Assembly (NCBI GenBank): GCA_026388315.1
Contig: JAPLKA010000020.1
Coordinates: 1-46,654 of the forward strand
Direction of reading: 5' to 3'
Length of the DNA: 46,654 nt
From: Pseudomonadota bacterium
Lineage (GTDB): Bacteria > Desulfobacterota > Syntrophorhabdia > Syntrophorhabdales > Syntrophorhabdaceae
Below, piece after piece: positions 9,655-15,221 of this stretch. The position numbers were made by a program, and so were the translations under genes. The notes below the pieces were generated by a model that was not told the DNA's origin, made no database searches, and was given only the letters and a program-made list of their open reading frames with translations. Every line of letters starts with the position of its first letter. Position 1 is the stretch's first letter.

Positions 9655-9673
9655 CACCTACCTATACGTACCA
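9655..9673 (+). repeat. left end of the tyrosine-recombinase element (core plus arm)
   Basis: The crossover-like core CACCTAC is followed by the arm CTATACGTACCA, whose exact reverse complement is the right-end arm. Outside it lies ATTTTGTA. The left end is 78 bases upstream of the first recombinase start. The remaining sequence between recQ and this end (9537-9654) shows no gene. Confidence 0.75.
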
Positions 9674-9751
9674 AAATATCTTGACCTCCGGTAATGCAGG
9701 GGTTAATCATTTATCCTGCTTTCTCTAAACAAAAGAAAAAGGAGGAAGAAG

Positions 9752-10750
9752 ATGGAACATGTAAATGCAATACCTAAACAGGCAGACAGCAGCAAAGAAG
9801 GAGTACGTGAGCGGACCACGCTCGACCATATCATCGAAAGACTTGCCTCTATGGAGCTTCCCGGCAAGGAGTACCTTGAGCAGTACATGCATTACAAATG
9901 GCGGGTAAACCACAAGCCCAAAACTATGAAAGGCTCTTTCACTTCGATTGTGCTTTTTCTAACGTTTTATGGGGCATCGGGCAAAAGCGACATTACCCGC
10001 CTTGAACGTTCTGATCTTGAGGCCTTTATCGAGCACGAGCAGGATCGCGGCATGTACATCTCGACGGTAAAAGTGCGCATGGCCTCCGTAATCGCTTTCG
10101 TCCACTTCCTCATGGAACAGGACATCCTCTCCTCATTGCTCCTTAAGAAAACAATCAGATTAAAACTTCCCGAGACCCTCCCCCGGGCAATGAACCCGGG
10201 TGATGTAAAAAGACTCATCGGGTCGATCGACGTCGTGAGGGATCGCGCGCTTATCCTTCTCCTTTTGCGGACAGGAATACGTATCGGCGAGGCCTTAAGC
10301 CTCACCATGAACGACATCGACCTCGCAGAGAAGAAGATCCATGTGCTGGAGGGGGAGAAAAACAGCATGGGCCGAGTGGTCTATCTCTCGGGAGATGCCG
10401 TCTTCGCGTTGAAGCGGTGGCTGGCTGTACAGAATAAGGAAAACGCTTACATCTTCTCCGGACGGGGCAATTCCCCCATCTGCTACAGCACCGCCAGAAG
10501 CCGCTTCTTTGTCTACCTCAGGAAAGCCGGACTTGAACATAAAGGCTATACGGTTCACTGCCTTCGTCACACCTTTGCAAGCGAGCTCCTCAATGCCGGC
10601 ATGCGTCTCGAAGTCTTACAGCAACTCTTAGGCCATCGGGATATTGAGGTCACCCGGCATTATGCGAGGCTTACCGACAGAACCAGGGAAGAAGAATACT
10701 TCCGTGCCATGGCGATCATCGAAAAAGGAGGGATCCATGGAGATTACTGA
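9752..10750 (+). CDS. tyrosine recombinase/integrase, first of a pair
   Basis: This 332-residue XerC/D-like recombinase has an N-terminal SAM-like core-binding domain (about 35-125) and a catalytic domain (about 145-325). The catalytic residues are visible: Arg in LLLRTGIRIGEALSL, His-x-x-Arg in CLRHTFASELL, the second His in LLGHRDIEVTRHYARL, and the tyrosine in the same block. A strong AAGGAGGAAG precedes the ATG. The stop overlaps the start of the second recombinase by 14 bases. The pair probably act together as a heteromeric strand-exchange enzyme on the element ends. Confidence 0.9.
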   Translation: MEHVNAIPKQADSSKEGVRERTTLDHIIERLASMELPGKEYLEQYMHYKWRVNHKPKTMKGSFTSIVLFLTFYGASGKSDITRLERSDLEAFIEHEQDRGMYISTVKVRMASVIAFVHFLMEQDILSSLLLKKTIRLKLPETLPRAMNPGDVKRLIGSIDVVRDRALILLLLRTGIRIGEALSLTMNDIDLAEKKIHVLEGEKNSMGRVVYLSGDAVFALKRWLAVQNKENAYIFSGRGNSPICYSTARSRFFVYLRKAGLEHKGYTVHCLRHTFASELLNAGMRLEVLQQLLGHRDIEVTRHYARLTDRTREEEYFRAMAIIEKGGIHGDY

Positions 10751-11717
10751 GAGATACGGCAGGTCGCTTAAGAGAAAAAACTGTGCCCCGTACACAATAA
10801 AGAACTACATGAACAGGATAGCTCATTTTACCCGTTGGCTTCGTATTCCCCTCTTTGAGGTAACCCGCCGGGAGATAGGGTTGTATGTGGACCGCCTCCT
10901 GAGGAAACACTGCTCGCCGAAGACGATCGCCTGCCATTTGCAGACCCTGCATCTGTTCTTCGCCTACCTCATCGAGGAAGAAAAAATAGCGATGGACAAC
11001 CCTGTTCGAAAGGTCTCTATCCGTCTGCCTAAACCTTTGCCCCGGTGCCTGAAGGACAAAGATGCAGAGAGGTTTTTTGCCGTTATCACCGATCCGAGGG
11101 ACAAAGCCATGTTCATGCTCATGCTCCGCTCGGGTCTGAGGGTCGAAGAGGTTGCCGGCCTCACAGTCGATGCAATAGACTACCGGAGACGGCAGTTGTT
11201 TGTAGTAAGGGGAAAAGGCGCCAAGGACAGGGTGGTCTATCTCAGCGACGATGCTATATCCGCCCTTGGCGTCTATCTGGCAAAACGGCCGTCGAAGGCA
11301 AAGAAGCTCTTCCTCGTTCAGAAAGGGCTGCATAAAGGAACACCGATCTCCGTCCGGGGGATCCAAAGAAGGATGGAACGCTATGCACAAAAGAGCGGGG
11401 TCACTGTATCATGCCACGCACTGAGGCACACATTCGCAACCCAGCTTCTGAACGCAGACGCCGACCTCGCCACGATCCAGGACCTTTTAGGCCATGCGCA
11501 CATTACAACGACCCAGCGGTACTGCCGGGTGGCCAACCTCAAGGTCGAACGGGACTATCACAAGGCCATGGAAGTGGTCCTGCAAAGAACCCAAAAGATG
11601 GAGGACGGGCACAACCGTCCTCACTGGTCAAACCCGGTCAGGAAAATGTGCATCCCCCTTAGTTCGCCGGAAGATGAAGAAAGGAGCTTTAAATGGCAAA
11701 AAGTAAAGATGAACTGA
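10737..11717 (+). CDS. tyrosine recombinase/integrase, second of a pair
   Basis: This is a 326-residue recombinase. The frame is open further upstream to 10644, but ATG 10737 sits four bases after AAAGGAGGG and removes a tail overlapping the first gene, so I use it. Catalytic residues: Arg in LMLRSGLRVEEVAGL, His-x-x-Arg in CHALRHTFATQLL, His in LLGHAHITTTQRYCRV, and Tyr in the same block. All are intact. It overlaps both neighbours, so the three genes form one translational unit. It resembles XerC/XerD but is clearly part of the element and not a chromosome dimer-resolution enzyme. Confidence 0.9.
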   Translation: MEITERYGRSLKRKNCAPYTIKNYMNRIAHFTRWLRIPLFEVTRREIGLYVDRLLRKHCSPKTIACHLQTLHLFFAYLIEEEKIAMDNPVRKVSIRLPKPLPRCLKDKDAERFFAVITDPRDKAMFMLMLRSGLRVEEVAGLTVDAIDYRRRQLFVVRGKGAKDRVVYLSDDAISALGVYLAKRPSKAKKLFLVQKGLHKGTPISVRGIQRRMERYAQKSGVTVSCHALRHTFATQLLNADADLATIQDLLGHAHITTTQRYCRVANLKVERDYHKAMEVVLQRTQKMEDGHNRPHWSNPVRKMCIPLSSPEDEERSFKWQKVKMN

Positions 11718-12856
11718 ATAACATGGTCGATGAGATCACCATCGATGCGTACAACGACGACGAACAACTCAGCGCCTTCGGGCAAGCCTTTGAGGACGAC
11801 CTCTCCCTGCCCGCGGAGGCCTTTGTGGTAGGAGAGCCTGTGACAGTGATGGCAATCGGATACGAGGGGAACGAGCGTCAGGGGCTCACCGCTACATGCC
11901 GGCGGGACGGATCCATATATATGGTTGCGGCCCACAGCCTCATCTTCCCTGACAACTCAAAAGCGGGCGATTATATAGCGGCCTACCGCACATGGCTCGG
12001 CATCGAGCCTTACCTGCATGTCAAGAAACGACCAACAGACGACCTCGACATGAGCAGGGCCGCCGAACTCATCGTCCTTTCGGTTAGAACAAACGCCATC
12101 TCATGCCGTATCCCCGGAAAGGACCGTAGCCTTACCCTTCGTCCCTCCGGATACCGGGAGATCGCGCCGGGCGAGATCATTACCGTATCTCCACGGAAGA
12201 AGTGGCAATATAAAGGCCATCTGTACCTTGCCGGCGAGATCATCGCATCTCGCACCGATATACCAACTCTGGGGCTTGCGCCTTTAACGCTCCATGAAAT
12301 TGGAGTGTGGGACCCCGGAGAACACTATTGGGGAGAGCCTCCATTGGAGTTATGGGCCAGGCCCGTAATCAAGCGGGGCATACGCCCCGAATATGAAATG
12401 GAGCAGGTGCTTCCCGGCGAAGACCCCGACAATCCCGACACAGACCCGATCCTTGATGCCGTCGACCTCGAACAGTCAGGTGACCACAAAAATGCCCGCC
12501 GCATACTCATGGATATGCTCGCATCGGATCTGCGCTGTCTCGATGCCCATGCACATCTGGGAAATTTTGCGTTCCCCCGGAACCCCGACATGGCAGTCCG
12601 CCATTACGATATGGGAATCAAAATAGGAGAGTTCTCCCTCGGTTCAAACTTTGACGGTCTCCTTCCGTGGGGGTGCATACACAACCGGCCCTTCCTCCGC
12701 TGCCTCCACGGTTACGGCCTTTGCCTGTGGCGCTTTGGCCGGTTGAGGGATGCGGAAAAAATATTCACCCGCATGCTCTGGCTCAATCCGACGGACAACC
12801 AGGGTGCACGTTTTAACCTGTCCGAGGTAAAAGGAGGAAAGACCTGGCATGAATAA
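11693..12856 (+). CDS. unknown passenger protein with TPR-like C-terminus
   Basis: This 387-residue cytoplasmic protein starts behind GAAAGGAGC and overlaps the second recombinase by 25 bases. The first 230 residues look beta-rich (EPVTVMAIGYEGNERQGLTATCRRDG, and a segment with EIITVSPRKKWQYKGHLYLAGE). The C-terminal part (about 255-375) reads as TPR-like helix pairs: DAVDLEQSGDHKNARRILMDML, then HLGNFAFPRNPDMAVRHYDMGI, then YGLCLWRFGRLRDAEKIFTRML. It has no transposase or nuclease motif. Its coupling to the recombinases suggests either an accessory recombination factor or a selfish cargo protein. I do not know the family name. Confidence 0.75.
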   Translation: MAKSKDELNNMVDEITIDAYNDDEQLSAFGQAFEDDLSLPAEAFVVGEPVTVMAIGYEGNERQGLTATCRRDGSIYMVAAHSLIFPDNSKAGDYIAAYRTWLGIEPYLHVKKRPTDDLDMSRAAELIVLSVRTNAISCRIPGKDRSLTLRPSGYREIAPGEIITVSPRKKWQYKGHLYLAGEIIASRTDIPTLGLAPLTLHEIGVWDPGEHYWGEPPLELWARPVIKRGIRPEYEMEQVLPGEDPDNPDTDPILDAVDLEQSGDHKNARRILMDMLASDLRCLDAHAHLGNFAFPRNPDMAVRHYDMGIKIGEFSLGSNFDGLLPWGCIHNRPFLRCLHGYGLCLWRFGRLRDAEKIFTRMLWLNPTDNQGARFNLSEVKGGKTWHE

Positions 12857-12882
12857 AGATCTATCAATAAAACAGGAAGTTA

Positions 12883-12929
12883 TCTGTGGGAATGTGGAAA
12901 GCTGTTCCACCTTCCCACATTCCCACAGA
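12883..12929. repeat. perfect 15-bp inverted repeat at the element's right side
   Basis: TCTGTGGGAATGTGG (12883-12897) is the exact reverse complement of CCACATTCCCACAGA (12915-12929), with a 17-base loop. It starts 26 bases after the passenger gene stop. It lacks a following T run, so it is not a standard terminator; it may stabilise the transcript or bind a recombinase. The rest of 12930..13051 shows no gene. Confidence 0.65.
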
Positions 12930-13051
12930 CACGGCGGCGGCGGATGTGATGGCCTCAGAAAAGGAAACAAATTGTCTTGACAGAAGCATGGAGAAAAGCG
13001 ATAATAAAAAATGGTGTTTAACTATATAATATCAATAGAGAATGTAGGATA

Positions 13052-13070
13052 TGGTACGTATAGCACCTAC
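13052..13070 (+). repeat. right end of the tyrosine-recombinase element (arm plus core)
   Basis: The arm TGGTACGTATAG is the inverse of the left arm and is followed by the same 7-bp core CACCTAC in direct orientation. Joining the outer flanks around one core gives TTGTA, CACC, TACAA, a palindromic empty site. Confidence 0.75.
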
Positions 13071-14848: not shown

Positions 14849-15221
14849 CCTAAAGGGAATAGCAAAAAGGCGACCAGAGGGCAATCGATTACCACTTGAT
14901 ATGTTTATATCGTGGAAAATAAGCAGAAACTTGCTTTCAGGAAGTTGCAAACGCCATCTTCTGCTGAAAAAATCACAATCAAATATCTGCACCTTTCAAC
15001 CCATAATAAACGGAAATTTATCATAAATATTGGCACATTGGCGGGGATTGCACACACCTACAAGTCAGGCATAGGGTCTTTTGACTTTGCTACGTATAGA
15101 AGGAAGAAATGTTGGTTTATGGTAAACCGGTATCATCGGTAAATATAATGATACCGGTTGAATTGAATAATTTAATGGGTCTTGAGGTCTCGAAGTCCCT
15201 GAAGTCTAGAAGGGAGCAGGA
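14849..15221. other. gene-free spacer with a perfect 12-bp inverted repeat
   Basis: No convincing gene lies here. A GTG-initiated frame at 14912 lacks a ribosome-binding site and looks accidental. A perfect dyad, AACCGGTATCAT (15125-15136) and ATGATACCGGTT (15148-15159) with an 11-base loop, lies 60 bases past the peptidase stop and may protect or end that transcript, although no T run follows. A motif CGATTACCACTT at 14886-14897 recurs at 22409. Confidence 0.5.

Follow-up and report, generated by a model that had tools for sequence, protein, structure and literature searches.

A 2023 paper (PMC10214605) recognises the following groups of transposons that use tyrosine recombinases: ICE/IMEs, SEs (strand-biased circularizing elements), GInts, RITs and Tn554. 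According to a recent review, such groups are few, and those that are not conjugative require three or four genes. Here we describe an element of 3416 bp (positions 9655-13070) in a 46,654-nt stretch of DNA, hereafter the window, from contig JAPLKA010000020.1 of a Pseudomonadota bacterium placed in the family Syntrophorhabdaceae. The element carries two coupled tyrosine recombinase genes (rec1 and rec2) and a further gene between inverted 12-bp arms, each arm having a 7-bp core outside it, while its basic relatives are about 2 kb long and contain only the two recombinase genes. This segment is very probably an intact copy of an autonomous tyrosine-recombinase transposon, for which we propose a circle-and-insert route.

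The RITs (recombinases in trio; PMC3414803; Ricker 2013) share with this element adjacent overlapping recombinase genes, terminal inverted repeats, multiple copies and a wide range of hosts, but they have three adjacent recombinase genes, whereas every complete rec1+rec2 element found here has two, and their ends are 34-bp repeats (quoted in PMC10214605) rather than 12 bp plus a 7-bp core. Members of the Tn554 family also combine two tyrosine recombinases, passenger genes and a preferred target. They encode an ordinary TnpA, a large TnpB and TnpC and leave a 6-bp footprint (PMC10214605), whereas the recombinases described here are both about 290-415 aa long across relatives, the core is 7 bp, and the basic elements lack a third gene. 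SEs and GInts likewise use two active tyrosine recombinases and att-type recombination, with short inverted ends in SEs, but they have four conserved genes, including one for a recombinase-fold protein without the catalytic residues (PMC10214605, PMC5385486), as against two in the basic elements. Tsy is also a transposon with two tyrosine recombinases, both of them essential, but it has a large TnsF-like protein with zinc fingers, an HTH gene, often a GIY-YIG gene, no detectable inverted ends and a comM target (PMC10293859); the recombinases here have only SAM-like and integrase domains, and the insertions adjoin many different sequences. In the BIM (bipartite module), a recombinase is again found with a partner gene, but the partner encodes a protein of unknown function (SMC-like in the table of that paper) instead of a second recombinase (PMC3414803). 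Gene content excludes RIT, Tn554, SE, GInt, Tsy and BIM as a home for this element, and the broad kind, tyrosine-recombinase transposon, fits. A first-pass annotation of the window had already set the locus apart from RIT and Tn554 and suggested a little-described or undescribed family; the distinction holds by gene content, and for RIT also by separate clades, and no two-recombinase element of such form was found in the literature searched, which excluded subscription papers and ISfinder. It is possible, although less likely than not, that these elements form an undescribed minimal transposon family with an obligate small recombinase pair, 12-7-12 sites and direction-setting sub-terminal repeats, and that the family can also act in trans on segments that hold only cargo between the same kind of ends, thereby moving host genes.

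The order of parts in the window element is core, arm, two recombinase genes, further gene, arm, core. The left core CACCTAC (9655-9661, plus strand) takes the outermost position and is identical at 7/7 bases, in direct orientation, to the right core CACCTAC (13064-13070, plus strand), and both lie outside the arms. The left arm CTATACGTACCA (9662-9673, plus strand) is complementary at 12/12 positions to the right arm (13052-13063, minus strand; TGGTACGTATAG on the plus strand). All letters of the four end sequences are present where the first-pass annotation had placed them. Related elements show this structure again. By a rough estimate, about 3e-5 such arm and core pairs are expected by chance in 4.1 kb. 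The rec1 gene (9752-10750, plus strand; 332 aa) encodes the residues R-K-HxxR-H-Y and overlaps rec2 (10737-11717, plus strand; 326 aa; catalytic residues present) by 14 bp, and rec2 overlaps the third gene (11693-12856, plus strand; 387 aa) by 25 bp. A hairpin with 22-nt arms lies near the right end (12883-12929), and a similar sequence is present in the element of genome G012 (G, C and L numbers are our labels for genomes, contigs and loci).

Both recombinases match Pfam PF00589 (Phage_integrase; E values of 7e-37 for rec1 and 6e-38 for rec2), and the only Pfam domains in them are SAM-like and integrase. In both families, no relative departs from the catalytic R, K, HxxR, H and Y. In the phylogeny, each of the two recombinases has its own clade (support 100/100 and 100/99), apart from XerC and from RitA/B/C of pHG1, the single RIT trio used as reference, to which their identity is 23-31%. 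The resemblance of both proteins to XerC/XerD-type recombinases, together with the inverted arms, would also suit a fixed recombination module, either an invertible switch or a Xer-type dimer-resolution site, rather than a transposon. We regard this as the least probable explanation: the best score (198 bits) is far under the XerC/XerD NCBIfam equivalog cut-off (335), the cores are direct, so that exchange would delete and not invert the segment, and copies with differing flanks occur at many unrelated places.

Thirteen of 148 genomes contain relatives of rec1, and relatives of rec2 turned up in exactly these 13, the two genes being nearly always adjacent; a rec2 profile search covering 395 genomes from across the phylum was positive in 11, some of which belong to this set. 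Scanning of the fetched contigs for an inverted arm pair with an adjoining direct core revealed at least 13 elements that combine rec1 and rec2 with two complete ends, all from the same phylum and of common anatomy, most of them about 2.05-2.5 kb long and passenger-free. They include L090 (core CACCTAC, 2056 bp), L096 (CACCTAC, 2060 bp), L104 (CAGGAAG, 2063 bp), L249 (CATCTAC, 2048 bp) and L102 (CAAATAC, 2131 bp, arm CTATACGTACTA). The arm sequence shifts with the recombinase lineage, as seen in L097 (arm CTATACGAACCA, core CTGCGTC, 2438 bp), L098 (arm CTGCACGTAACA, cores TATAGCA/CATAGCA, 2565 bp) and three elements with the arm CTGTACGTAAC, namely L251 (cores CTTGCCA/CTTGCTA, 2267 bp), L252 (CTTGCCA, 2087 bp) and L253 (TGTTGTA, 2506 bp); such covariation is expected if the Rec1/Rec2 pair reads the arms. 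A further element, L095 (G012 contig C157; core CAGGAAG, 6975 bp), bears the third gene and has two mismatches in its arm. The pair of rec1 and rec2 is the defining unit of the family, and the two recombinases are the only genes always present in the basic elements.

Multiple copies are present in several genomes. Matches to the 12-bp arm exceed the control in the window's genome (15 versus 1) and in G002 (17 versus 2), G010 (18 versus 1), G005 (13 versus 3) and G016 (12 versus 1). One intact copy, the window element, was found in the window's own genome, whose contigs C10 and C53 carry decayed left ends with rec1 fragments. In G005, where the element ends are near-identical, the left end adjoins 5 different flanking sequences and the right end 6, and the contigs break about 75-155 bp inside the element; this pattern appears to represent 5-6 recent insertions, with contig breaks as expected of multi-copy DNA. 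The element accounts for repeats at which assemblies from these organisms are broken up. Two loci belonging to different genera of a single family, L101 and L094, share 93% DNA identity over 2.07 kb, and their homology extends to the outer limit of the right core and no further, which points to horizontal spread. A plasmid search gave no match at 1e-40 and just generic recombinases below 60% identity at 1e-8 (28-34% among the matches listed), and viral contigs gave only distant recombinases (identity at most 30% for rec1 and 37% for rec2).

In 13 of the 15 complete elements, a count that includes the cargo-only element L140 described below, left and right cores agree at six or seven of their seven positions; when partners were shuffled, the mean number of such matches was 2.4, and 13 was reached in none of 20,000 shuffles. 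The core sequence is element-specific, and GTAGGTG/CACCTAC and CAGGAAG/CTTCCTG dominate. In pairwise blastn comparisons of close elements, the first arm base (offset 0) marks the start of homology where the cores differ, as between the window element and L101, and where the cores match, the homology takes in the core as well (offset -7, or slightly beyond); the right edges behave alike. The exceptions are the L102 pairs and the window/L104 pair, whose diverged left end is lost by blastn, and L104/L101, in which 12 bases are shared beyond the common core CAGGAAG. The ends of the element are therefore fixed by comparison, beyond symmetry alone, and the claim of a mobile element with base-exact ends and two coupled recombinases is borne out. 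Each end also contains the inward-reading motif YCTGCTTTYTCT. For all 12 elements compared, its best match in the left end lies at +52 to +55, and for 11 of these 12 its best match in the right end lies at +15; in the window element it is represented by CCTGCTTTCTCT (9715-9726, plus strand), 53 bp inward of the arm start, and CCTACATTCTCT (13037-13048, minus strand), 15 bp inward. The match is weaker in distant elements, and its place is unchanged. Because the spacing is unequal yet constant, the motifs may be accessory recombinase sites, which would distinguish left from right.

Outside the core, A is found at position -4 in 63 of 86 ends and T at position -2 in 75 of 86, and the target preferred by insertions is ANTW-N7-WANT, in which ANTW adjoins the 7-bp core on each side. 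The joined flanks of the window element do read TTGTA-CACC-TACAA, the dyad that had been put forward as its empty site; the dyad fits the target pattern only in part, is otherwise particular to this site and does not serve as a general empty site. In size, terminal inverted repeats and 7-bp direct repeats, the elements resemble a standard insertion sequence, and the 7-bp repeats could in principle be target-site duplications made by a DDE transposase in trans, with the recombinases as passengers. This is very improbable, as the two recombinases fill the 2-kb elements and are their sole constant genes, the cores are restricted and lie within a fixed target pattern, and the arms covary with the recombinases. 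A dispersed repeat as the target was also considered and rejected, because matches to GTACACCTACAAGTC at one mismatch are at the control level.

In the route that we propose, Rec1 and Rec2 would bind the inverted arms, probably joined in a mixed tetramer as XerC and XerD are, and cuts at both edges of the core would release the element as a circle with the arm-core-arm junction TGGTACGTATAG-CACCTAC-CTATACGTACCA. The circle would then insert at ANTW-N7-WANT, where the core of the site usually matches that of the element, so that a core would stand on both sides, and the spacing of the sub-terminal motif (+15 right, +53 left) would tell the ends apart. Each recombinase may cut a particular strand, the movement would be conservative rather than copy-out, and the window copy may be active at present. 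CTnDOT and Tn916 also use a tyrosine recombinase over a crossover region of about 6-7 bp, but they are conjugative and employ a single integrase with accessory excision factors.

We infer the excised circle from sequence anatomy. The 12-7-12 site predicted by the first-pass annotation has one counterpart, between truncated copies: contig C238 of G010 contains the arm-core-arm junction TGTTACGTATAG-GTAAATA-CTATACGTAACA between truncated left-type and right-type interiors. This junction speaks for the route but is no proof of a circle, since a head-to-tail pair would look alike. Several observations weigh against the route. The left and right cores are unlike in L101 (CAGGAAG/CTCCCTG) and L103 (GCTGCCT/CTCTCCT), showing that core homology is not absolute, and G016 has the left cores CACATTG, ACACCTG and CCATTTG with multi-copy right ends that both have CATCGCC (GGCGATG in direct orientation), their pairing being inferred. 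The same annotation had called for an empty site in close relatives; none was found, because gene order around the window element and the G120 element is not conserved, and the TupB neighbourhoods in relatives are not syntenic with the window. In addition, many ends in these genomes are solitary remnants with no detectable partner. The L101, L103 and G016 cores leave a partial-homology, coupling-sequence or copy-out route possible for some elements. The same element might thus move in the style of Tn916, CTnDOT, Tn554 and SEs, with the donor core on one side, the target core on the other and no empty site required. Besides the unlike cores and the varied left cores of G016, this alternative is favoured by the agreement, in G016 and L103, of the two bases adjoining the left arm, which partial homology predicts. 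We consider such a route unlikely, though it deserves some weight, given the agreement of cores in 13 of 15 complete elements and the G005 copies, which all have the core CACCTAC except for one CACGTAC. A two-gene element of about 2 kb whose ends are known to the base, whose target pattern can be read and whose cores vary naturally offers a very small system for studying the division of one reaction between two recombinases and the extent of core homology required for insertion.

The third gene had been described as TPR-like, and the trio of genes as the mark of the family. The predicted model of the 387-aa protein has a mean pLDDT of 87, and its residues 241-384 match solved TPR domains (Z 13.4, rmsd 2.0, 116 aligned), so the C-terminal third is a TPR domain in the model, the best-tested part of the fold search. 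The N-terminal part suggestively resembles Anabaena CcbP and the central beta-barrel region EF-P/eIF5A-like barrels, both weakly supported, and the earlier description holds for the C-terminal third. Arms and recombinase pairs recur among relatives, the trio only rarely: the TPR gene is present in 3 elements only (window, G012 and G045), most recombinase pairs lack it, and it is an occasional passenger, so the trio is rejected as the defining unit. Relatives of the protein with about 43-62% identity occur in Verrucomicrobiota, Acidobacteriota, Spirochaetota, Actinomycetota, Myxococcota and others, and rec1/rec2-type recombinases were not found alongside these relatives in other phyla. The three element-borne copies form one clade (support 100/100), most simply explained if a sub-lineage gained the gene behind rec2 once and the gene then travelled with the recombinase pair. 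The TPR protein is most likely cargo. Its retention in three elements as one clade and the 25-bp overlap with rec2 would also suit a part in the transposition machinery of this sub-lineage, which is rather unlikely given that most complete elements lack the gene and that relatives of its product at 43-55% identity are spread over many phyla without these recombinases. The element shows a route by which single genes pass between these bacteria. Stand-alone TPR-protein genes (L018:1-762 and L037:5706-6011) were also seen by eye near open reading frames resembling other tyrosine recombinases or their remnants, and the passenger gene may ride other mobile elements too.

L140 (contig C60 of the window's genome, 1096-3373) has one right-type end and one arm-only end, with arms matching at 11/12 and the core CAAGAAG at 7/7, and it contains genes for an FMN reductase and a radical-SAM/B12 protein without a recombinase. 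This single case suggests a cargo-only element mobilised in trans; if so, it would represent a cassette-like economy outside integrons. A partner search for solitary ends gave one marginal pair (L234), the same as the control count. Some solitary ends contain rec2 remnants, and these are therefore truncated copies. In the window, an extra right-end-like arm (TGCTACGTATAG, 15089-15106) with AAGGAAG outside lies 2 kb past the element, and no matching partner was found for it.

A 15-bp scar between direct cores (CTTCCTG-CTATACGTAACATAR-CTTCCTG) is present at L139:5042 (C54:24041 of the window's genome), at L142:5247 (C116:34235 of the same genome) and in contigs C91, C161 and C228 of G002, the first core being CATCCTG in C228. 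A search of 45 genomes for the 22-bp scar pattern gave 8 matches, spread over 3 genomes, against none in the reversed control, and the scar could have been left by imprecise excision or could represent a minimal remnant. A related 1.73-kb module, 85-93% identical in three genomes (L099:6601-8333, L100:1390-3123 and L105:5003-6723), has a rec1 without its N-terminal 140 residues or so and ends that differ from those of the main family, and no family arms were found in this subfamily. A 3.3-kb insertion (L095:1953-5314) splits rec2 of the TPR-bearing G012 element. At L003:1501-2200 and L004:1501-2060, solitary right ends precede a series of short hairpins that differ in their stems (e.g. CTCCGCAACAGTTGCGGAG and GCGGACACATTGTCCGC) and are set between related spacers (AAAGTCAAYRAAGAC-like).

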